Assembly (NCBI RefSeq): GCF_017744095.1
Contig: NZ_JAGHQX010000014.1
Span: 1-64,000, forward strand
DNA from: Shimia sp. R10_1
GTDB taxonomy: Bacteria; Pseudomonadota; Alphaproteobacteria; Rhodobacterales; Rhodobacteraceae
Length of the DNA: 64,000 nucleotides
Reading direction: 5' to 3'
The translations under genes and the position numbers were made by a program. Within the stretch, counting starts at the first letter, position 1. Each line of letters opens with the position of its first letter. The notes under the pieces were generated by a model. It searched no databases. It was not told the DNA's origin and saw only the letters and a list, made by a program, of their open reading frames with translations. This document shows, piece after piece, positions 23,442 through 43,132 of this stretch.

Positions 23442-24932
23442 TTACAGATCCATCAGCAAACGGCGTGGATCTTCCAGTGCTTCTTTGACGCGCACGAGGA
23501 AGGTCACGGCGCCTTTGCCGTCGACGATGCGGTGGTCATAGCTGAGCGCCAGATACATCATCGGGCGGATCACCACTTGGCCGTTGATTGCCATTGGACG
23601 GTCCTGAATTTTGTGCATGCCGAGGATACCGGACTGCGGTGGGTTCAGGATCGGGGAAGACATCAGGGAGCCGTATACACCACCGTTGGAGATGGTGAAG
23701 GTGCCGCCCTGCATTTCCGCCATCGACAGTTTGCCGTCACGCGCACGCTTGCCTTTTTCGGAAATCGCTTTTTCGATTTCAGCAAAGGACATGCTGTCCG
23801 CATCGCGGATCACAGGCACAACCAGACCTGTTGGAGTACCCGCTGCAACGCCCATGTGTACGAAGTTCTTGTACACGATGTCGGTGCCGTCGATTTCCGC
23901 ATTCACTTCTGGCACTTCTTTCAGAGCGTGGCAGCACGCTTTGGTAAAGAAGGACATGAAGCCAAGACGCACGCCATGCTTCTTTTCGAACTGGTCTTTG
24001 TACTGGCTGCGCAGTGCCATCACCTCGGTCATGTCCACCTCGTTGTAGGTGGTCAGCATGGCGGCGGTGTTCTGGCTGTCTTTCAGACGCTTTGCGATGG
24101 TCTGACGCAGACGTGTCATTTTCACGCGCTCTTCGCGAGAGGCATCTTCTGCCGCAACAGGTGCGCGCGGTGCAGCAGCCGCGGCGGGAGCCGGAGCGGC
24201 AGCAGGGGCAAGCGCAGCTTTCATGACATCTTCTTTCATGATGCGGCCATCGCGGCCAGTGCCGGTGACAGCGGCTGGGTCAATGCCTTTTTCCGCCATC
24301 AGTTTGTTGGCAGAGGGGGCGTTCTCCACGTCAGAAGAGGCGGCAGGCGCCGCAGCTGGAGCGGCCGCAGGTGCGGCTGCCGCTGCGCCAGATGCGCCAC
24401 CGATGACGGCGAGCTTGGCGGTGGCATCAACGGTGGTGCCTTCAGGCGCGAGGATTTCGCTCAGCACGCCTGCGGCTGGGGCTGGCACTTCGACAGAAAC
24501 CTTGTCGGTTTCCAGCTCACAAAGCATTTCGTCTTGAGCAACGGTGTCACCCACGGCTTTGAACCATGTGGACACGGTGGCTTCGGTGACGGACTCGCCA
24601 AGGGTTGGAACCATGACATCCACGGCTTCCGCGCCAGATGCTGCAGGAGCGGTCGCTGCAGGTGCCGCTGCTGCGGCAGGCGCTGGAGCAGCGCCTTCGC
24701 CAGCATTGATTGTGGCCAGCAGTGCGTCAACGCCAACGGTTTCGCCTTCGCCAGCAACGATTTCGCCCAGCACACCAGCGGCTGGCGCTGGAACTTCGAC
24801 GGTGACTTTGTCGGTTTCCAGCTCACACAGCATCTCATCCACCGCGACTGCATCACCCGGCTTTTTGAACCAGGTCGCGACAGTTGCCTCGGTGACGCTC
24901 TCGCCTAGGGTGGGGACTCGGACTTCGGTCAT
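23442..24932 (-). CDS. sucB: 2-oxoglutarate dehydrogenase E2 (dihydrolipoamide succinyltransferase), two lipoyl domains
   Basis: A 496-residue E2. Two lipoyl domains are visible at about residues 2-77 and 102-178, each with the lipoylation site ETDKV(T/S)VEVPAPAAG. Ala/Pro-rich linkers separate them from a peripheral subunit-binding domain ([28 protein letters not shown], about 205) and the catalytic domain ending with [15 protein letters not shown]. Most succinyltransferases, for example that of E. coli, have one lipoyl domain. It transfers succinyl groups to CoA. It starts three bases after the sucA stop, and its ribosome-binding site overlaps that stop. Confidence 0.95.
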
Positions 24933-24935
24933 GGA

Positions 24936-27896
24936 TTAGTTTCCTTCCATGGTAAGCGCGGCATCGACCAGCGCTGCTTGTTGTGACTTGTGTTGGCTTG
25001 CCAGACCGGTGGCGGGCGACGCGGAAGCTGCGCGGCCTGCGTAAGTCGGGCGGGTGTGTTTTGCTTTGATGCGGGTCAGTACCCATTCGATGTTGGGCTC
25101 AATGAAGCTCCAAGCACCTTGGTTCTTTGGCTCTTCCTGACACCAGACCATTTCAGCGTCTTTGAAACGCTCAAGCTCCTTGGTCAGCGAATGCGCCGGG
25201 AATGGGTAATATTGTTCGATCCGCATCAGATAGACATCATCAATGCCGCGTGCATCACGCTCTTCCAGAAGATCGTAGTAGACCTTACCGGAGCACATCA
25301 CGACGCGTTTGATGTCTTTGTCTTTCTTCAGCTGGGTGTCGGAGTTGCCCTTTTCGGCGTCATCCCACAGCACGCGGTGGAAAGAGGAGCCGTTGGTGAA
25401 CTCTTCCGCTTCGGAAATGCAGAGCTTGTGACGCAGCAGCGATTTTGGCGTCATCAGGATCAGCGGCTTGCGGAAAGTCCGGTGCAGCTGGCGACGCAGA
25501 ATGTGGAAGTAGTTCGCTGGGGTCGAGCAGTTGGCCACGATCCAGTTGTCCCCGCCACACATCTGCAGGAAGCGTTCCAGACGCGCGGAGCTGTGCTCTG
25601 GGCCTTGGCCTTCAAAACCGTGGGGCAGAAGGACTGTCAGGCCGGACATGCGCAGCCATTTGCTTTCGCCGGAGCTGATGAACTGGTCGAACATGATCTG
25701 TGCGCCGTTGGCGAAATCACCGAACTGTGCTTCCCAAAGGGTCAGCGCATTTGGTTCTGCCAGCGAGTAGCCATATTCAAAGCCAAGCACCGCATATTCA
25801 GAAAGCGCGGAATCGATCACTTCGTATTGGCTTTGGCCGGCACGGATGTTGTTGAGCGGGTAGTAACGCTCTTCCGTTTCCTGGTTCACAATGCCGGAAT
25901 GGCGCTGAGAGAAGGTGCCGCGGGTGGCGTCCTGACCGGCCAGACGAACCGGGTAGCCTTCTGTCATCAGAGAGCCGAAGGCCAGCGCTTCTGCGGTTGC
26001 CCAGTCAAAGCCTTTGCCGCTTTCAAACATTTTGCCGCGTGTGTCGAGCAGTCGGCCCACGGTTTTGTGCAGGGGGAAGCCTTCTGGCACGGAAGTCAAC
26101 GCTTTGCCGATTTCCGCAAGGGTTTCTTCCTTGATCGAGGTTTGGCCCCGCTCGTAGTTTTCACCGCGTTTGTCGAGGTGGGACCAGCGGCCGTCCAGCC
26201 AGTCTGCTTTGTTGGGTTTGTAGTCTTTGCCGACTTCAAACTCTTCGTTCAGATGGGCCTGGAAGGCGGCCTTCATGTCTTCGATCTCGCCCTCTGGGAT
26301 GAGGCCGTCTTTCACCAGACGTTCGGTGTAGAGCGTGAGCGTGGTTTTCTGCTTCTTAATGCGCTTGTACATCACCGGGTTGGTGAACATGGGCTCGTCG
26401 CCCTCGTTGTGACCAAAGCGGCGGTAGCAGAAGATGTCGAGCACGACGTCTTTCTGGAACTTCTGACGGAACTCGGTGGCCACTTTCGCCGCGTGGACCA
26501 CAGCTTCTGGATCGTCGCCGTTCACGTGGAAGATTGGCGCCTCAACCACCAGCGCGTTGTCTGTTGGGTAAGGCGAAGACCGAGAGAAGTGCGGTGCGGT
26601 GGTGAAGCCGATCTGGTTGTTCACCACGATGTGCATGGTGCCACCGGTTTTGTGGCCGCGCAGGCCGGAGAGGGCGAAACACTCGGCCACAACACCCTGA
26701 CCTGCAAAGGCCGCATCGCCGTGCAGCAATACAGGCATCACAGCGGTACGTTGCGTATCGTTCAGCTGATCCTGTTTTGCGCGGACCTTGCCAAGCACAA
26801 CGGGGTTCACCGCCTCAAGGTGAGAGGGGTTTGCCGTCAGGGACAGGTGGACGGTGTTGCCGTCAAATTCACGGTCAGAGGAGGCGCCGAGGTGGTATTT
26901 CACGTCGCCGGAGCCATCCACATCATCAGGTTTGAAGCTGCCGCCCTGGAATTCGTTGAAAATGGCGCGGTAAGGCTTGCGCATCACGTTGGCCAGAACA
27001 GACAGGCGGCCGCGGTGGGGCATGCCGATCACGATTTCTTTCAGGCCGAGGTTGCCGCCGCGTTTGATCACCTGCTCCATGGCGGGAATGAGGCTTTCGC
27101 CGCCGTCCAGACCAAAGCGCTTGGTGCCCATGTATTTCACGTGCAGGAATTTCTCAAAACCTTCCGCTTCCACCATTTTGTTCAGGATGGCTTTGCGGCC
27201 TTCACGGGTGAAGGTGATTTCTTTGTCGTAGCCTTCAATACGCTCTTTCAGCCAGCCCGCTTCTTCGGGGTTGGAGATGTGCATGTATTGCAGCGCGAAG
27301 GTGCCACAGTAGGTGCGCTTCACGATTGCCATGATCTGGCGCATGGTGGCGATGTCGAGCCCCAGCACCTTGTCGATGAAGATAGGGCGATCCAGATCTG
27401 CGTCTGTGAAGCCGTAGGATTTGGGATCAAGTTCTGGATGCGGCGTCTGATCCCGCATGCCCAGTGGGTCGATGTCAGCGATCAGGTGGCCGCGAATACG
27501 GTAGGCGCGGATCAGCATGAGGGCGCGGATCGAATCCAGCACCGCGCGTTTGACCGCCTCGTCTGAGACCTCAACGCCTTTTTCGGCTGCCTTGGCCTTG
27601 ATTTTGTCGCCTGCCGCTTTCGCTTCGGCGGGTTCTGCCCATTCGCCGGTCAGCGAAGATGTCAGATCATCACTGGGTTGTTGTGGCCAATCGGTGCGCT
27701 GCCAGCTTGGGCCCTGGGCCTCAGCTTTGACGTCAAGCTCCGCATCGCCGAGCTGGCGGAAGAATTCCTGCCAGGTCGCATCGACCGCATTGGGGTCGGC
27801 GGCGTAGCGGGCATACATCTGTTCGAGGTATTCCGCATTGTGCCCCTGCATAAAGGAAGAGGCATGGAAGATATCGTTAGGCGACTGTTCGGTCAT
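24936..27896 (-). CDS. sucA: 2-oxoglutarate dehydrogenase E1
   Basis: A 986-residue thiamine-diphosphate enzyme that decarboxylates 2-oxoglutarate and succinylates lipoyl-E2. The N-terminus (SSFMQGHNAEYLEQMYARYAADP) is the E2-binding region; GMPHRGRLSVLANVM at about 320, HLGASSDRE, and GDAAFAGQGVVAE with NNQIGFTT form the ThDP and active-site core; GYSLAEPNALTLWEAQFGDFANGAQ marks the C-terminal pyrimidine domain. GAGGTG precedes the ATG. It lies between sucD and sucB on one strand, so sucCDAB forms a likely operon. Confidence 0.96.
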   Translation of the reverse strand: MTEQSPNDIFHASSFMQGHNAEYLEQMYARYAADPNAVDATWQEFFRQLGDAELDVKAEAQGPSWQRTDWPQQPSDDLTSSLTGEWAEPAEAKAAGDKIKAKAAEKGVEVSDEAVKRAVLDSIRALMLIRAYRIRGHLIADIDPLGMRDQTPHPELDPKSYGFTDADLDRPIFIDKVLGLDIATMRQIMAIVKRTYCGTFALQYMHISNPEEAGWLKERIEGYDKEITFTREGRKAILNKMVEAEGFEKFLHVKYMGTKRFGLDGGESLIPAMEQVIKRGGNLGLKEIVIGMPHRGRLSVLANVMRKPYRAIFNEFQGGSFKPDDVDGSGDVKYHLGASSDREFDGNTVHLSLTANPSHLEAVNPVVLGKVRAKQDQLNDTQRTAVMPVLLHGDAAFAGQGVVAECFALSGLRGHKTGGTMHIVVNNQIGFTTAPHFSRSSPYPTDNALVVEAPIFHVNGDDPEAVVHAAKVATEFRQKFQKDVVLDIFCYRRFGHNEGDEPMFTNPVMYKRIKKQKTTLTLYTERLVKDGLIPEGEIEDMKAAFQAHLNEEFEVGKDYKPNKADWLDGRWSHLDKRGENYERGQTSIKEETLAEIGKALTSVPEGFPLHKTVGRLLDTRGKMFESGKGFDWATAEALAFGSLMTEGYPVRLAGQDATRGTFSQRHSGIVNQETEERYYPLNNIRAGQSQYEVIDSALSEYAVLGFEYGYSLAEPNALTLWEAQFGDFANGAQIMFDQFISSGESKWLRMSGLTVLLPHGFEGQGPEHSSARLERFLQMCGGDNWIVANCSTPANYFHILRRQLHRTFRKPLILMTPKSLLRHKLCISEAEEFTNGSSFHRVLWDDAEKGNSDTQLKKDKDIKRVVMCSGKVYYDLLEERDARGIDDVYLMRIEQYYPFPAHSLTKELERFKDAEMVWCQEEPKNQGAWSFIEPNIEWVLTRIKAKHTRPTYAGRAASASPATGLASQHKSQQAALVDAALTMEGN

Positions 27897-27975
27897 GATG
27901 GCACCTCATGGAGACTGGGACCGGTTTTGATTTTGGCCCCAAATAGGGCATGTCGGGGTAGATGAACGCGGGAAC

Positions 27976-28009
27976 GTTTCAAAACACTTAGCGCGGTTCG
28001 CTTTGAAAC
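27976..28009. promoter_or_regulatory. Inverted repeat in the sucD-sucA spacer
   Basis: GTTTCAAA at 27976-27983 and TTTGAAAC at 28002-28009 are perfect 8-base arms 18 bases apart, in the 227-base gap between sucD and sucA. It could be an internal operator or an mRNA hairpin. No other element is evident in this gap. Confidence 0.35.
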
Positions 28010-28123
28010 ACAGAAATTCGCGTTCAACTCTCAGTTATCTGCGCGACGCTTATGCGGGACAGCGCCCGAACCTATGAGGCTCGGACGCTGAACATTTGCA
28101 TATGTGCCGTGCGAGCGGACAAT

Positions 28124-29011
28124 TTAGCCCAGCTCGATTGCTTTGAGCACAGCTTCGCCGAGGCCGGCTGGGCTGTCGGCAACGATGATGCCTGCTTCTT
28201 GCATTGCGGCGATCTTGTCTTCTGCGCCACCTTTGCCACCAGCAACAATCGCACCGGCGTGGCCCATGCGGCGGCCGGGAGGCGCTGTGCGGCCAGCGAT
28301 GAAGCCTGCGGTTGGCTTCCAGCGGCCTTTTTTGCGCTCGTTTGCGAGGAAGTCAGCGGCTTCTTCTTCTGCAGAACCACCGATTTCACCGATCATGATG
28401 ATGGACTGGGTCTCGTCGTCAGACAGGAACATGTCCAGCACGTCGATGTGCTCGGTGCCTTTGATCGGGTCGCCGCCGATGCCCACAGCGGTGGACTGGC
28501 CCAGACCGATGTCTGCGGTCTGTTTCACCGCTTCATAAGTCAGAGTGCCGGAACGGGACACAACGCCCACGGAGCCACGCTTGTGGATGTGGCCAGGCAT
28601 GATGCCGATTTTGCAGGCGTCAGGTGTGATAACACCTGGGCAGTTTGGGCCGATCAGGCGGGAGGAAGAGTTTTCCAGCGCGCGCTGCACTTTCATCATG
28701 TCCAGCACAGGAATGCCTTCGGTGATGCAGATGATCAGTTCCATTTCCGCGTCAATCGCTTCGAGGATCGAGTCTGCCGCGAAGGGGGGCGGCACATAGA
28801 TCACGGAAGCATTGGCTTCGGTTTTTGCTTTCGCATCATGTACGGAGTCAAAGACCGGCAGGCCCAGATGCTCCATGCCACCTTTGCCCGGGGTCACGCC
28901 GCCGACCATTTTGGTGCCATATGCGATGGCTTGTTCAGAGTGGAAGGTGCCCTGAGAGCCGGTGAAGCCCTGACAGATGACCTTGGTGTTTTCGTCTACG
29001 AGGATTGCCAT
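28124..29011 (-). CDS. sucD: Succinyl-CoA synthetase alpha subunit
   Basis: A 295-residue subunit that carries the phosphorylated histidine. [23 protein letters not shown] is the CoA-binding region, GGVTPGKGG follows, [10 protein letters not shown] is conserved, and [11 protein letters not shown] contains the active-site His. With SucC it converts succinyl-CoA to succinate with formation of ATP or GTP. Its AAAGGA ribosome-binding site overlaps the sucC stop codon, five bases before the ATG. Confidence 0.96.
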
Positions 29012-29016
29012 GGGTG

Positions 29017-30210
29017 TTATCCTTTCACCGCTTTGACGATTTTCTCTGCGCCGTCAGACAGGTTGTCCGCGGCGATCACGTTCAGGCCGGAGGTGTTGAT
29101 GATCTCCTTGCCCTGCTCCACGTTGGTGCCTTCCAGGCGCACAACCAGCGGAACTTCGAGGCCAACCTCTTTCACTGCGGCCACAACGCCCTCTGCGATC
29201 ACGTCGCAGCGCATGATGCCGCCGAAGATGTTCACCAGGATGCCTTTGACGTTTTTGTCAGAGGTGATGATCTTGAACGCTTCGGTCACTTTCTCTTTGG
29301 TCGCACCGCCGCCTACGTCGAGGAAGTTGGCTGGCTCTGCGCCGTAGAGTTTGATGATGTCCATGGTGGCCATTGCGAGGCCCGCGCCGTTCACCATGCA
29401 GCCGATTTCACCGTCCAGAGCGATGTAGTTCAGATCGTACTTGGACGCCTCAAGCTCTTTGGGGTCTTCTTCGGTTTCGTCGCGCAGCTCGGCCACGTCT
29501 GGGTGGCGGTACACGGCGTTGCCGTCAAAGCCAACTTTGGCGTCGAGCACTTTGAGTTTGCCGCCTGGCATGACGATCAGCGGGTTGATCTCCAGCTGCT
29601 CCATGTCTTTTTCCATGAAGGCTTTGTAGAGAATGCCCATCAGCTTCACGCATTCTTTGACCTGTGCGCCTTCGAGGCCCAGAGCAAAGGCAACGCGGCG
29701 GCCGTGGTAAGCTTGGTAGCCGGTGGCTGGGTCAACGGAGAAGGAGAGGATTTTCTCAGGAGTTGCGGCTGCAACTTCTTCGATGTCCATGCCACCCTCG
29801 GTGGAGCAAACGAAAGACACGCGGGATGTCTGGCGATCCACGAGCAGGGCGAGATAGAGTTCGCGCTCGATGTCGGAGCCGTCTTCGATGTAGATGCGGT
29901 TGACCTGTTTGCCTGCTGGGCCGGTCTGGTGGGTCACAAGGGTGCGGCCCAGCATCTTTTTGGCTTCTTCGGCGGCTTCTTCCACCGATTTGGCAAGGCG
30001 CACACCGCCTTTTTCGCCTGCATCAGCTTCTTCAAAGGTGCCTTTGCCGCGACCACCTGCGTGGATCTGTGCTTTGACAACCCAGAGTGGGCCGTCAAGT
30101 TCACCAGCGGCGGTTTTGGCGTCTTCTGCTTTCAGAACAACGCGGCCTTCGGACACCGGAGCGCCGTAGGAGCGAAGCAGGGCTTTCGCCTGATATTCAT
30201 GGATGTTCAT
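29017..30210 (-). CDS. sucC: Succinyl-CoA synthetase beta subunit
   Basis: A 397-residue ATP-grasp subunit starting with [19 protein letters not shown] at 30210; the frame is open further upstream but this is the conserved start. [15 protein letters not shown] binds the nucleotide, [10 protein letters not shown] and EINPLIV are ATP-grasp motifs, and [15 protein letters not shown] is the conserved CoA-site region. First gene of sucCDAB, preceded by a pair of TGTGATCACA sites 94-130 bases upstream. Confidence 0.96.
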
Positions 30211-30303
30211 AGAACTGGTCCCATCTTGCTGCGATTGGCGGCGTTTTGACACACTCCAAAGCAGTCGATAAGCAAATTCGAACAAGAAGGTGGATTTTTC
30301 GTT

Positions 30304-30340
30304 ATTTGTGATCACAGTTAGAAAAGCTGTGATCACAAAT
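30304..30340. promoter_or_regulatory. Paired TGTGATCACA operator upstream of sucC
   Basis: ATTTGTGATCACAG (30304-30317) and CTGTGATCACAAAT (30327-30340) are perfect inverted arms with a nine-base spacer. Each arm contains the 10-bp palindrome TGTGATCACA; the two copies are 21 bases apart, about two helical turns. The same pair occurs before sdhC. The remaining sequence up to the lipoprotein stop (30341-30489) shows no other feature. Confidence 0.7.
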
Positions 30341-32560: not shown

Positions 32561-33301
32561 TTGATTGATTCTCTCTTATTTGTGGTGGTTGCTCCGATAG
32601 CCGTGATGTTTGCGGGTATCTCCAAAGCCGGATTTGGATCGGGTGCTGCTTTTGCAAGCGCGGTGTTGCTTGCGTTGATTCTGCCGCCCGCGCAGGCCTT
32701 GGGCCTGATGTTACCGCTCTTGATGTTGGTGGATTTGATGACGCTGCGGCCTTACTGGGGGCGGTGGAGTTGGCTGGATGCAAAGGTACTGATTTTGGGG
32801 GCACTGCCTGGAGTGGTCTCAGGCGTTGCGCTGTTCCGCGTTGCAAACGATGACGTGCTGCGCCTGCTGATCGGTGCCGTTTCACTTGCATTCGTTGCTT
32901 GGCAGCTTTGGCCGCGCAAAGCCATCGCTGCGCAATTGCCGGTGGGGGCTGGCGTGATTGCAGGGGGCGTAGCCGGTTTTACAAGTTTTGTGAGCCATGC
33001 AGGTGGACCACCGGCCGCTGTCTACTTGTTGTCGCGTGGTTTGAATAAAACCAGCTATCAGGCAACCACTGTGCTGGTGTTTTGGGCGATCAATATCGCT
33101 AAGTTTGTACCCTATGCGTTTCTCGGTGTGTTCACATTGGAAACAGTCAAAGCGGGCATTTTGCTTGCACCATTTGCGTGCCTTGGTGCCTACATAGGTG
33201 TGAAAGCGCATCACGCCGTTTCAGAGCGGGTCTTCTTTATGGTGACATATGTTTTGCTGTCAGTGACCGGCGTGAAGCTGATATATGATGCGCTTGTGTG
33301 A
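32561..33301 (+). CDS. TauE/SafE-family permease
   Basis: A 246-residue membrane protein with about eight hydrophobic helices. The N-terminal APIAVMFAGISKAGFGSGAAF and the mid-protein GGVAGFTSFVSHAGGPPAAVYLLSRGL are the two repeat motifs of the TauE/SafE (DUF81) family, which move sulfite, sulfoacetate and similar organic anions. The start is probably TTG 32561, because no better in-frame start lies before the first helix. The substrate is unknown; no sulfur genes are adjacent. Confidence 0.83.
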   Translation: MIDSLLFVVVAPIAVMFAGISKAGFGSGAAFASAVLLALILPPAQALGLMLPLLMLVDLMTLRPYWGRWSWLDAKVLILGALPGVVSGVALFRVANDDVLRLLIGAVSLAFVAWQLWPRKAIAAQLPVGAGVIAGGVAGFTSFVSHAGGPPAAVYLLSRGLNKTSYQATTVLVFWAINIAKFVPYAFLGVFTLETVKAGILLAPFACLGAYIGVKAHHAVSERVFFMVTYVLLSVTGVKLIYDALV

Positions 33302-38059: not shown

Positions 38060-38755
38060 ATGCGGTTTCTCAATGTCATAGCGGCAGGGCTTTTGTGTTT
38101 TCCGGCGTCAGCAAAGGCCTGCGAGCTGGCGCTTTTGCTGACAGTGGATGTCTCTGGCAGCATTGATGCAGAAGAGTATCGCGTTCAGATGGATGGGCTG
38201 GCTGCGGCGCTGCGTGACGGGATTGTGGTCGAGGCGCTGGTCGCGCAAGAGGCTGCGGTTGCCTTGATGCAGTGGACCGGTGAAGGGCGCCAGCATGTGA
38301 GTGTCCCTTGGAGCAGGATCACGTCGGCGCAAGATGCGGAAGATCTGGCGGTTAGAGTGGGGCAAATGCGCCGTCAGTGGAGCCGATATTCGACAGCGAT
38401 TGGTGATGCGCTTTTGGCATCCGCTGCGCTGATGGAAGCCGCGCCTTCCTGTGAGCGCAAGGTTGTAGATGTGTCCGGGGACGGACCGTCAAACGAAGGC
38501 CCGCTGGTTGAATACGGCCGGAAGCGGTTGGCGGAACTTGGGGTAACGATCAATGCGGTGGTGATTGAAACCGATGCATCTGACCTGACAGCCTACTTCT
38601 GGGAAAATGTGATCACGGGGCCCGGTGCGTTTGTCGTCACCGCGCAAGGTTTTGAGGACTATCCAAGACGGATCAGGCAAAAGTTGATCCGCGAAGTCGC
38701 AAAGCAGGTTTCAAATACGTCTGTTTCTTTCGTAGAAACGACCGGAAAAATGTGA
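38060..38755 (+). CDS. DUF1194 von Willebrand A-like exported protein
   Basis: A 231-residue protein with a signal peptide (MRFLNVIAAGLLCFPASAKA). The metal-ion-dependent adhesion site reads LTVDVSGSID, followed by YSTAIGDALL and VVDVSGDGPSNEG, which supply the other MIDAS residues. This is the DUF1194 family of periplasmic VWA-like proteins, function unknown. It lies between the metallopeptidase gene and the sdh operon. Confidence 0.85.
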   Translation: MRFLNVIAAGLLCFPASAKACELALLLTVDVSGSIDAEEYRVQMDGLAAALRDGIVVEALVAQEAAVALMQWTGEGRQHVSVPWSRITSAQDAEDLAVRVGQMRRQWSRYSTAIGDALLASAALMEAAPSCERKVVDVSGDGPSNEGPLVEYGRKRLAELGVTINAVVIETDASDLTAYFWENVITGPGAFVVTAQGFEDYPRRIRQKLIREVAKQVSNTSVSFVETTGKM

Positions 38756-38841: not shown

Positions 38842-38873
38842 TTGTGATCACGAATAAAAACGTGTGATCACAA
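38842..38873. promoter_or_regulatory. Paired TGTGATCAC operator upstream of sdhC
   Basis: TTGTGATCACG (38842-38852) and TGTGATCACAA (38863-38873) are spaced by 20 bases start to start, 115-146 bases before the sdhC ATG. The core matches the pair before sucC. The rest of 38756-38987 is AT-rich and contains the sdh promoter, which I could not place exactly. Confidence 0.7.
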
Positions 38874-38987
38874 AAGTGAAAAAATCGATATGATTGGCGA
38901 AAAAAACAGCGAGAATTAAGTCTTCGCCAAGGTGACAGCGTGCAAAAATGCGCTAGAAGATCCGCAGAGACCTTGAAAGGATTCATT

Positions 38988-39371
38988 ATGGCTGATGTGA
39001 AAAGGATTGAGCGCCCGCTCTCCCCCCACTTGCAGATCTACCGACCTCAGATGACCTCTGTGTCTTCTATTTTTGTGCGGATCACCGGCATTGCGTTGAT
39101 CCCGATTGCTGCGGTCGTTGTTTGGTGGCTCCTCGCTGCGGCAACATCAGAAAGCGCGTTTGCGTTCATTGATGGATTGCTGCGCAGCTTCCTTGGCGAC
39201 GTGTTCCTTTTCCTGTCCGCGTGGGCGGTGTTCTATCACATGCTGGGGCGTCTTCGTCACGTGATCTGGGACTTCGGCTACTGCCTGGATATCGAAACTG
39301 CGGTTAAGCTCGGCAAAGGCATGTTTGTAGGGGCAACCGTGCTTTCCATTGCGACCGCGCTGATTGTGTAA
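38988..39371 (+). CDS. sdhC: Succinate dehydrogenase cytochrome b556 subunit
   Basis: A 127-residue membrane anchor with three helices. The N-terminal RPLSPHLQIYRPQMTSVSSIFVRITG is the SdhC signature with the conserved Ser/Arg near the quinone site, and FYHMLGRLRHVIWD carries the haem-ligand His region. It anchors SdhAB to the inner membrane and passes electrons to ubiquinone. First gene of the sdh operon; MADVKR at 38988 follows an AAAGGA site. Confidence 0.94.
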   Translation: MADVKRIERPLSPHLQIYRPQMTSVSSIFVRITGIALIPIAAVVVWWLLAAATSESAFAFIDGLLRSFLGDVFLFLSAWAVFYHMLGRLRHVIWDFGYCLDIETAVKLGKGMFVGATVLSIATALIV

Positions 39372-39383
39372 GGAGTAGATGAG

Positions 39384-39755
39384 ATGAATTTTCTAACCGA
39401 CCGCAAACGCGCGCAAGGCACCGGGGCATCTGGTAAAGGCACCGAGCACCACTGGCACATGATGATCAACTCGTCGCTCCTGGTGGTCTTGGTCCCGCTG
39501 TTTGTGATTACCTTTGGTATGGGCATTGGCGGCACTTACGAAGAGGTTCTGGCCTATTTTGGTAAGCCGTTCCCTGCGATCATCACCGCGCTCACGCTGA
39601 TCGTTGGTGTGAACCACATCAAAAGCGAAGCTCAGGACGCAATCGAAGACTATATGCACGGCGTTGCGGAAAAGCTGACTTATATTGCCGCAGGTGCAAT
39701 CTGTTACACGATTATCATCGTAGGATTGTTTGCGCTGATTAAACTCGCCCTCTGA
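39384..39755 (+). CDS. sdhD: Succinate dehydrogenase membrane anchor subunit
   Basis: A 123-residue subunit with three hydrophobic helices (NSSLLVVLVPLFVITFGMG; FPAIITALTLIVGVNHIKS; KLTYIAAGAICYTIIIVGLFALI). The NHIKSEAQDAIEDYMHG stretch corresponds to the haem-ligand and quinone-site region of SdhD. It begins 12 bases after sdhC with GGAGTAGATGAG upstream. Confidence 0.92.
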   Translation: MNFLTDRKRAQGTGASGKGTEHHWHMMINSSLLVVLVPLFVITFGMGIGGTYEEVLAYFGKPFPAIITALTLIVGVNHIKSEAQDAIEDYMHGVAEKLTYIAAGAICYTIIIVGLFALIKLAL

Positions 39756-39839
39756 CGCCGGAGCGCCCGACCGAGGTTGTGGCGCACGCGTAACACTGTG
39801 AACTGAACGCCCTGTATAGCGGCGGCAAGGATTAGACCG

Positions 39840-41654
39840 ATGACAGCAGCATACGAATACGAAACACATGAATATGACGTGGTCGTGGTAGGCGCCGGTG
39901 GCGCTGGTTTGCGCGCCACTCTAGGTATGGCCGAGCAGGGCTTGCGCACTGCCTGTGTGACCAAAGTTTTCCCGACCCGCTCGCACACAGTTGCGGCACA
40001 GGGCGGTATTGCCGCCTCACTTTCCAACATGGGCCCCGACAACTGGCAGTGGCACATGTATGACACCGTGAAGGGGTCTGATTGGCTTGGCGATACTGAC
40101 GCGATGGAGTATCTCGCACGCGAAGCGCCCAAGGCTGTTTATGAGCTGGATCACTATGGTGTGCCGTTCTCGCGCACCGAGGAAGGCAAGATTTATCAGC
40201 GTCCGTTTGGGGGGCACACCACAGAGTTTGGCGAAGGGCCTGCCGTGCAGCGGACCTGTGCGGCCGCAGACCGGACGGGCCACGCCATCCTGCACACGCT
40301 GTATGGCCAATCGGTCAAGAACAACGCGGAATTCTACATTGAGTATTTCGCAATCGACCTGCTGATGTCCGAAGACGGCCAATGTCAGGGTGTGGTTTGC
40401 TGGAAGCTTGACGACGGCACGTTCCACGTGTTCCACGCCAAAATGGTTGTGCTGGCAACTGGCGGTTATGGCCGTGCGTATTTCTCTGCAACCTCTGCAC
40501 ACACCTGTACGGGCGATGGTGGCGGCATGGTGATGCGCGCTGGCCTGCCGATGCAGGACTTGGAGTTCGTTCAGTTCCACCCAACCGGGATCTACGGCTC
40601 CGGCTGTCTGATCACCGAGGGCGCCCGCGGCGAAGGCGGCTATCTGACCAACTCCGAAGGTGAGCGCTTTATGGAGCGCTATGCGCCACAGTACAAAGAC
40701 CTTGCACCACGCGACTACGTCTCGCGCTCCATGACTATGGAGATCCGTGAAGGTCGTGGCGTCGGTGCAGAAGGTGACCACATTCACCTGAACCTGAGCC
40801 ACCTGCCGGCGGAAGCGCTTGCAGAGCGCCTGCCAGGGATTTCTGAGAGCGCGAAGATCTTTGCAGGTGTGGACGTAACCAAAGAGCCAATCCCAGTATT
40901 GCCGACTGTGCACTACAACATGGGCGGTATTCCCACCAACTACTGGGGTGAAGTGCTGAACCCAACCGAAGAAGATCCCACAGCTGTTGTGCCGGGCCTG
41001 ATGGCGGTTGGTGAAGCGGGCTGTGCTTCGGTGCATGGAGCAAACCGTCTGGGGTCCAACTCTTTGATCGACCTTGTTGTGTTTGGCCGCGCGGCAGCGA
41101 TCCGTGCAGGCAAAGTCGTGGATCGTGACGCGCCCGTGCCAACCCCACCTCAGGTCGAGATCGACAAGTGCTTCGCGCGCTTTGATAGCTTGCGCCACGC
41201 CAAAGGTGCCATTCCGACGGCAGAGCTGCGTCTGGATATGCAAAAAACCATGCAGCGTGACGCGGCCGTGTTCCGGACAGCCAAAACCATGAAAGAGGGT
41301 GTCGAGGCCATGACCGAGATTGCAGGGCGCATGAATGACCTGCACGTGACCGACACATCTCTTGTCTGGAATTCCGACCTGATGGAGACGCTTGAGCTCA
41401 CCAACCTGATGCCGTCTGCAATCTCCACCATCGTGTCCGCAGAGGCGCGTCAGGAAAGCCGCGGCGCGCACGCGCATGAGGACTTCCCGACACGTGATGA
41501 CGAAAACTGGCGTGTGCATACGGTGAGCCGTGTGAACGAAGATGGCACGAAAGTTGATCTATCTTATCGCCCAGTGATTGTTGACCCGCTGACCAAAGAA
41601 GAGGAGGGTGGGATCGAACTTAAAAAGATTGCACCTAAAGCGAGAACCTTCTGA
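39840..41654 (+). CDS. sdhA: Succinate dehydrogenase flavoprotein subunit
   Basis: A 604-residue flavoprotein that oxidises succinate to fumarate. The FAD loop is [36 protein letters not shown] carries the His that holds FAD covalently; [23 protein letters not shown] and RDYVSRSM supply substrate-site residues; [21 protein letters not shown] is the family C-terminal motif. Its TGA overlaps the ATG of an unrelated exported-protein gene by one base. Confidence 0.97.
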
Positions 41655-42211
41655 TGAAATTTGGATTTGCTGGATTATTGATTGGAATGACTTTGGCGAC
41701 ACAAGCTGTTGCTGAGGAAAAAGCTACTCCAATAGTTATTCAGCAAATTCAGCAGTGTATCTCTGATACGCGGGCGCCTGGAAAATATAAGGTGACGGCA
41801 TACGAAAATGTACCAGTTGTGGTTTCTGATGCGGGCGGAACAGATATCGGTGCAAGTAATGTGAATGATTGCCTACAGGATACCTACGGTGTCCAGTATG
41901 AAACCAACGCGTTTGCGAGTGTGTCAGACAAGACAAGCTTTGAACTTGCTGAGCAGCAGTGCCGCAACACGATGGTTGGCGGCGCAATTCTTGGCGTTGT
42001 CGCTGGAGCTGCGGTTTGGCACTGGGCTGGTTACTCTGCGGCGGAGGGTGCTGCGATTGCAATTCTCGGCACCCCGATTTCCTTGTCGGGCTTCATGGAT
42101 CGCTGTCTCAGAGACAAAGGGTTCTCCAAGTCTCAAGGCCTGGAATTCGCTTCTGGCTGCTCGCGCAAGTCGGATGTGCTCCATGGTGGCTCTCAGTATT
42201 GCCGCCGATAG
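41654..42211 (+). CDS. Hypothetical exported protein inserted between sdhA and sdhB
   Basis: A 185-residue protein coupled to sdhA (TGATG overlap). It has a signal peptide ([20 protein letters not shown]), six cysteines in the mature part (QQCISD, NDCLQD, QQCRNT, DRCLRD, SGCSRK, YCRR) and a Gly/Ala-rich helix of glycine-zipper type (GGAILGVVAGAAVWHWAGY). By hand count the first 100 bases are about 38 percent GC, far below sdhA and sdhB. A location in the periplasm or outer membrane is likely. No link to succinate dehydrogenase is known to me, though its tight coupling suggests coexpression. Confidence 0.8.
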   Translation: MKFGFAGLLIGMTLATQAVAEEKATPIVIQQIQQCISDTRAPGKYKVTAYENVPVVVSDAGGTDIGASNVNDCLQDTYGVQYETNAFASVSDKTSFELAEQQCRNTMVGGAILGVVAGAAVWHWAGYSAAEGAAIAILGTPISLSGFMDRCLRDKGFSKSQGLEFASGCSRKSDVLHGGSQYCRR

Positions 42212-42352
42212 AATATGTATTGCGTGGAAGACTCCCGGGTCCTGCGCATTGTGAATAGAAAGCGCTTGTCGTTCGGAAGAATGCTGAGGCAGCGCAGGAA
42301 CAGGAACGAAGGTAAGCGCAGGTTGCGCGCCCACGTGTAGGAAGGAAAGACG

Positions 42353-43132
42353 ATGGTCGAATTTGCCCTCCCCAAGAACTCCCGGATTATGACCGGCAAA
42401 ACCTGGCCCAAGCCGGCTGGCGCGACCAATGTGCGCAAGTTCCAGATCTATCGCTGGAACCCGGACGACGGCAAAAACCCACAGGTGGATACCTATTTTC
42501 TGGACATGGACAAATGCGGTCCAATGGTTCTGGATGCGCTGATCAAGATCAAGAATGAGGTCGACCCTACGCTGACCTTCCGCCGCTCGTGTCGTGAAGG
42601 CATCTGTGGGTCCTGTGCGATGAACATCGACGGGATCAACACGCTCGCCTGTATCTACGGTCTCGATGAGATCAAAGGTGATGTGAAGATTTATCCGCTG
42701 CCGCATATGCCAGTGGTGAAAGACCTGATCCCAGATCTGACTCACTTCTACGCGCAGCACGCATCCATCATGCCGTGGCTGGAAACCAAGACCAATCGCC
42801 CCGCGAAAGAGTGGCGTCAGTCCATTGAGGACCGTAAGAAGCTTGACGGTCTTTATGAATGTGTGATGTGCGCATCCTGCTCTACGTCTTGCCCAAGCTA
42901 CTGGTGGAACGGCGATAAATACCTGGGTCCAGCGGCACTCTTGCACGCTTACCGTTGGATCATCGACAGCCGTGATGAGGCGACAGGCGAGCGTCTGGAC
43001 GAGTTGGAAGATCCGTTCAAGCTCTACCGCTGCCACACCATCATGAACTGTGCAAAGACCTGCCCGAAGGGTTTGAACCCGGCAAAGGCGATTGCAGAGA
43101 TCAAGAAGATGCTGGTCGAACGCCACGTCTGA
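42353..43132 (+). CDS. sdhB: Succinate dehydrogenase iron-sulfur subunit
   Basis: A 259-residue subunit that links SdhA flavin to the membrane quinone. [14 protein letters not shown] with a later Cys binds the 2Fe-2S cluster; [16 protein letters not shown] and [17 protein letters not shown] bind the 4Fe-4S and 3Fe-4S clusters. GAAGGAAAG precedes the ATG. It is separated from the inserted gene by 141 bases that show no clear feature, and a terminator follows. Confidence 0.97.

Follow-up and report, generated by a model that had tools for sequence, protein, structure and literature searches.

The sucCDAB and sdhCDAB operons of Shimia sp. R10_1 are each preceded by two copies of a short palindrome set 20 or 21 bp apart. 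We consider it highly probable, from comparison of sequences across the family, that these pairs are double operators of the regulator AkgR, at which two dimers would activate suc and sdh from upstream, and that one dimer would repress akgR at its own gene. The window, as used here, is the whole stretch of DNA that we analyzed, 64,000 nucleotides of contig NZ_JAGHQX010000014.1.

Paired palindromes precede the suc and sdh operons

In the window, sucC-sucD-sucA-sucB occupies 23442 to 30210 on the minus strand (sucC, 29017 to 30210; sucD, 28124 to 29011; sucA, 24936 to 27896; sucB, 23442 to 24932), with the sucC ATG at 30210. On the plus strand, sdhC-sdhD-sdhA-(ORF)-sdhB occupies 38988 to 43132 (sdhC, 38988 to 39371; sdhD, 39384 to 39755; sdhA, 39840 to 41654; ORF, 41654 to 42211; sdhB, 42353 to 43132), with the sdhC ATG at 38988. 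Both operons were assigned by NCBIfam matches over the cutoff. Inside the sdh operon, the 185-amino-acid ORF starts on the final base of sdhA and lies ahead of sdhB, and no Pfam match to it was found.

Upstream of sucC, TGTGATCACA occurs twice with a spacing of 21 bp on the minus strand, as a promoter-distal copy at 30328 to 30337 and a promoter-proximal copy at 30307 to 30316. The copies lie within inverted arms, ATTTGTGATCACAG (30304 to 30317) and CTGTGATCACAAAT (30327 to 30340), that are perfect over 14 bases, exactly as the original prediction had given them in position and arm length. That prediction also described a matching pair before sdhC. A pair with a spacing of 20 bp is indeed present there on the plus strand, with a promoter-proximal TGTGATCACA at 38863 to 38872, but the match is imperfect: the promoter-distal copy, TGTGATCACG at 38843 to 38852, ends in G and so differs at one end base. 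The mdh gene, as proposed, has no such site, the nearest upstream copy with at most one mismatch being about 1 kb away (33127 to 33136) inside another gene's frame. A third TGTGATCACG is present at 38608 to 38617 (plus strand), 235 bp before the sdh pair and within the DUF1194 gene upstream of sdhC, and the distance of 235 bp is the same in a genus mate; this copy is possibly an auxiliary site or a coding coincidence.

The pairs are rare in the genome and conserved in the family

Exact TGTGATCACA occurs eight times in the 4.37-Mb genome: three copies are at suc and sdh, one is just before an AkgR-like gene, and four are within open frames. The suc and sdh sites were the only matches in the whole genome to TGTGATCACN-N{9,14}-TGTGATCACN, and the pattern GTGATCAC-N{3,32}-GTGATCAC gave two matches only. 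The genome scan for paired cores returned suc and sdh alone, with no scatter of pairs unlinked to central metabolism. The window contains five GTGATCAC cores; its 200 dinucleotide-shuffled versions average 0.9 cores, and none of them contained a pair. About 0.002 pairs at 20 to 21 bp are expected per genome from the shuffles, versus about 0.04 from the real density of cores in relatives. We took the chance expectation from the shuffles and the local density in place of a reversed-pattern control, which gave no match in any of 292 genomes except G097 (one match) and was not relied on because it contains CTAG, a word that is scarce in bacteria.

The GTGATCAC-N{3,32}-GTGATCAC pattern was found in 287 of the 292 Rhodobacterales genomes checked (all one family; 108 of 112 genera). 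There were two matches in 227 genomes, one in 19, three or more in 41, and none in 5, and the extra matches in multimatch genomes include pairs at other spacings. Among the matches listed from a scan at 11 to 40 bp, 67 of 75 pairs were spaced by 20 or 21 bp. For close reading, we used regions from 58 relatives, all picked from genome lists having a pair; 36 of the 58 came from a list scanned at 18 to 23 bp only, and the fetched DNA was then searched at 11 to 40 bp. With the window included, a pair preceded sucC in 59 of these 59 pair-selected genomes, 96 to 137 bp before the gene, and preceded sdhC in 56 of 59, at 107 to 204 bp. The three without a counted sdhC pair were G246, where the region stops short of sdhC, and G008 and G087, which have a single exact pair; among the sdh leaders inspected, those of G008 and G011 lack an exact pair, and the pair of G035 has one mismatch. 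All 115 sucC and sdhC pairs are spaced by 20 bp (17 pairs) or 21 bp (98 pairs), and the spacer sequence varies among pairs while the spacing stays fixed.

The two suc copies could base-pair over arms of 14 bases, which would suit an RNA hairpin or terminator in place of an operator, and palindromes can also arise by chance. We regard either origin as extremely improbable given the recurrence of the pair in nearly all genomes at a fixed spacing with a changing spacer, its position upstream of the predicted promoters described below, and the absence of any pair from the 200 shuffles.

Additional cores were seen in some leaders. In 11 of 56 sdh leaders (window included; e.g., L163 at 8584), a third GTGATCAC lies no more than 400 bp ahead of the sdh pair, where about 1.5 would be expected from local density, and no helical phase of the third sites upstream of sdh was apparent by eye. 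No third core was found within that distance before the suc pair in 59 sequences. In a Gemmobacter nectariphilus MAG (L255, 20188 to 20263), four GTGATCAC cores precede sucC at spacings of 21, 21, and 26 bp, and in Pseudotabrizicola sediminis (L270, 19894 to 19943), three precede it at 21 and 21 bp.

Among 189 genomes from the rest of the class, beyond this family, 11 had any match, two of them at 20 to 21 bp and one at 22 bp. In family f13 (G417 and G303), GTGATCAC pairs occur at 21 and 22 bp (L122, 992 to 1020; L120, 2009 to 2038). The L122 pair is before a GntR gene, and both pairs are before a divergent gene that looks TonB-dependent receptor-like by eye. The paired layout may serve other FCD regulators outside the family.

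AkgR as the probable regulator of both pairs

The regulator of both pairs is very probably AkgR, a GntR/FCD activator. We take AkgR to be RSP_0981 of R. sphaeroides, a species now placed in Cereibacter. In the excerpted text of PMC4344238, the R. sphaeroides network predicts sucCD, sucAB, and sdh as targets of RSP_0981, a GntR protein, its predicted targets being succinyl-CoA synthetase, 2-oxoglutarate dehydrogenase, and succinate dehydrogenase; this agrees with the 2-oxoglutarate-to-fumarate scope that the original prediction had assigned to a common regulator. The excerpted PMC6365646, citing Imam 2015, reports GTGATCAC among AkgR binding sites and calls AkgR an activator. Three features of this regulon are present in Shimia sp. 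R10_1, which has a GntR plus FCD regulator in its genome, GTGATCAC at the target promoters, and sucCD, sucAB, and sdh operons.

The AkgR-like gene, P0001, is located away from the window on contig C22 (261226 to 261876, minus strand). Its product has a GntR wHTH domain (PF00392; E = 3e-12) and an FCD domain (PF07729; E = 6e-19), by sequence its closest relative of known structure is McbR (4p9f), and an exact TGTGATCACA lies shortly before the ATG. P0001 is a putative orthologue of RSP_0981, a relationship that the co-occurrence of pair and homologue described below supports. The RSP_0981 locus number is 5 after sdh. In Cereibacter ovatus, neither suc nor sdh shares a contig with the AkgR homologue, no such homologue was seen in the 79 kb around sdh, and no match was obtained between the RSP numbering and the gene order. 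Among 80 named-organism loci, akgR is within 10 kb of sdh in 4, and there is a SucA match within 10 kb of akgR in 23 and a SucB match in 31.

A P0001 homologue with a best E value of at most 1e-70, a cut for strong AkgR homologues that was chosen after the data were seen, is present in 287 of 292 genomes. Pair and homologue occur together in 286 genomes, four have neither (G110, G227, G141, and G232), G231 has the homologue only, and G023 has the pair only (Fisher p = 8e-8 across 292 genomes, a statistic that ignores kinship). The suc pair of G231 has one mismatch and a spacing of 21 bp, and no AkgR match at an E value of at most 1e-20 was found in G023. The match between gene and site is strong but imperfect. 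In G110 and G227, both of genus g56 (L107 and L108), a 48 to 51% homologue retains TTGAC-N13-GTGATCAC in its own promoter and no pair was found in the suc and sdh leaders; loss or rewiring of the regulon is possible in these two genomes. The common suc and sdh regulator that had been predicted is supported, and the protein, earlier guessed to be GntR-like and left unnamed, can be given with good confidence as AkgR.

The half-sites read TGTGA and TCACA, a resemblance that could suggest a CRP/FNR-type regulator. CRP requires TGTGA-N6-TCACA, and we rejected a CRP/FNR site because the half-sites abut without a spacer at both suc and sdh. The distribution of the sites also follows the GntR gene, and we think it very unlikely that a regulator of the CRP/FNR type binds the pairs.

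The operators could also belong to another GntR/FCD paralogue that merely has the core motif in common with AkgR. There are 16 FCD matches in the genome, and one FCD gene besides P0001 (L018) carries an exact GTGATCAC some 600 bp ahead of its FCD domain. A second homologue, with about 36 to 39% identity where read, is present in many relatives, and in another family a GTGATCAC pair precedes the gene of a homologue with 30% identity (L119/L122). According to the excerpted PMC6365646, PS417_07240, a GntR protein of the Pseudomonas simiae deoxyribonate cluster, is an AkgR relative proposed to use the same GTGATCAC palindrome, but it is 32% identical to AkgR, acts in deoxyribonate oxidation, and has one site near the gene start. 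However, P0001 alone among the 16 has the GTGATCAC core at its gene start, as do P0001 homologues at 79 of 122 loci, whereas none of six loci of the 36 to 39% paralogue has the core, and the presence of the pair tracks strong P0001 homologues. On this evidence we judge a paralogue to be quite unlikely and retain AkgR as the regulator. A further R. sphaeroides regulator, CceR (RSP_1663), is also predicted for sdh, and for mdh, in the excerpts of PMC4344238, but it belongs to the LacI family, and those excerpts do not tie it to the TGTGATCACA palindrome.

The sdh pair and its predicted promoter are in helical phase

Unanchored Gibbs sampling of 20 sdh leaders, including that of the window, returned a motif downstream of the sdh pair consisting of CGTGACW and a TAnnAn-like -10, with GTGACW in 18 of the 20. 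In the window, the predicted sdh -35 is GTGACA (38932 to 38937, plus strand) and the predicted -10 is TAGAAG (38954 to 38959, plus strand). Of 56 sdh leaders, 53 have GTGACW, which in 40 of these 53 starts 57 to 60 bp after the pair. The other 13 offsets, which come from 13 genera, are 47, 47, 48, 50, 69 (five leaders), 70, 71, 71, and 80 bp, and all are within 2 bp of whole 10.5-bp turns counted from 58.5. None of 100,000 draws from a uniform null, the range of which was fixed after the data were seen, reached this phase concentration, and on the 7 distinct values p was 0.0013 with kinship ignored. The set leaves out the three leaders without GTGACW (L058, L075, and L154), and for leaders with two copies we took whichever copy was close to the cluster or had a -10-like partner (L067, 59 not 90; L069, 69 not 15; L158, 60 not 37). 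Seven of seven further sdh leaders with an exact pair, from named-organism genomes whose genera may overlap those of the first set, have the motif at 58 to 59 bp; Szabonella alba (L231) has no exact pair and was left out of this count. Within the main sdh cluster, the -35 is about 1 bp farther away with 20-bp pairs (n = 6) than with 21-bp pairs (n = 34; one-sided p = 0.004), so that its distance from the distal dyad is unchanged (79.3 versus 79.4). As read from these leaders, the distance between the sdh pair and its predicted promoter differs only by multiples of roughly one helical turn. The idea that two dimers would occupy one DNA face gains support from these one-turn steps and from the 20- or 21-bp spacing of all 115 pairs.

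Our assignment of the suc promoter is weak. When 59 suc sequences were anchored on the pair, T was found at columns 48, 49, and 50 after it in 84, 77, and 64%, respectively, and this TTT, placed about one turn nearer the pair than the sdh -35, suggests a possible -35 region at 30255 to 30261 (minus strand) in the window. An unanchored Gibbs search of the suc leaders gave noise only and did not recover the candidate -35. For R. sphaeroides, transcription start site data are announced in PMC7471390. The pairs are upstream of the predicted promoters of both suc and sdh, without overlap.

A single site overlaps the predicted akgR promoter

In this genome and in many relatives, akgR has one copy of the site at a fixed 13 bp after a TTGAC -35. 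A GTGATCAC core was found from 150 bp before to 20 bp after the akgR start, as set by homology, at 79 of 122 loci (28 of 30, 8 of 12, and 43 of 80 for the three sets separately), and TTGAC-N13-GTGATCAC was found at 67 of 122, with two or more copies at one locus. Given a TTGACN -35 and a 17-bp spacer, the predicted -10 would lie within the site's right half, and polymerase should therefore be blocked by a bound dimer. The core is missing before akgR at 37 of the 80 named-organism loci, one of which (L196) has under 60 bp of upstream DNA, and self-regulation is therefore not universal; Tabrizicola, Rhodobacter ruber, and Cereibacter ovatus are among the named loci without the site. In G147, a GTGATCAC pair 13 bp apart (C1:3357949-3357969) is located beside the akgR homologue, where a single site is usual.

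Many GntR proteins are repressors, and paired, phased operators also suit looping, so the suc and sdh pairs might themselves be repressor sites that act by looping or as a roadblock. The pairs, though, end about 47 to 60 bp upstream of the predicted -35 and do not overlap the promoter, the overlapping layout occurs at akgR instead, and AkgR is termed an activator in the excerpted PMC6365646. Repression through the pairs appears unlikely to us, and we favor reading them as activator sites.

Discussion

At suc and sdh the sites are double and lie upstream, in phase with the predicted promoter at sdh, and akgR has a single, overlapping one, a difference that points to activation of the former two and self-repression of akgR. 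We propose that two AkgR dimers sit side by side on one DNA face at each pair and contact RNA polymerase from upstream, which would activate suc and sdh, and that a single dimer at akgR would block polymerase and so limit AkgR itself. The input, which the FCD domain would sense, is likely a TCA-cycle metabolite or related acid. Class I activators such as CRP bind upstream and work only at particular helical phases; AkgR is unrelated to these proteins, and here the activator site is doubled at 20 to 21 bp. A more specific version, for which we see an even chance, is that AkgR would act as an obligate dimer pair. With double sites two turns apart and the distal dyad in register with the -35, it would be a class-I-like activator of suc and sdh, cooperative and specific to one face, and at the single akgR site it would be a self-repressor, so that operator number and phase, not sequence, would set the sign of control.

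The regulator, its targets, and the core motif are already published, and the suc and sdh pairs are very probably members of the AkgR regulon. The primary paper on the AkgR regulon of Rhodobacter sphaeroides is reportedly that of Imam, Noguera and Donohue (2015, mBio 6:e02461-14). The literature that we searched did not include it, and we found there no account of how the pairs are spaced, of their phasing, or of the contrast with akgR. The architecture of the pairs may be new, Imam 2015 may show some of it, and we make no firm claim of priority. Judged by listings, nothing relevant was found on paired or phased GntR operators or on suc and sdh regulators of the family, and a search for literal TGTGATCACA gave nothing on TCA-cycle regulation by titles and abstract starts. 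As excerpted in PMC4344238 and PMC6365646, the R. sphaeroides system is like that described here in its GntR regulator, its sucCD, sucAB, and sdh targets, its GTGATCAC core, and its activator role; the paired layout, the phasing, and the single overlapping akgR site are not mentioned in those excerpts.

These results name a likely regulator for the TCA-cycle steps from 2-oxoglutarate to fumarate in Shimia sp. R10_1, and they suggest that one doubled, strictly spaced operator wires the suc and sdh operons together in the surveyed family. A few promoter variants would suffice to test the spacing and phasing rules, given their precision. If the model is correct, over 100 genera of a single family have retained the paired half of the AkgR design, and AkgR would provide a simple case in which one site type makes a protein an activator or a self-repressor by layout alone.
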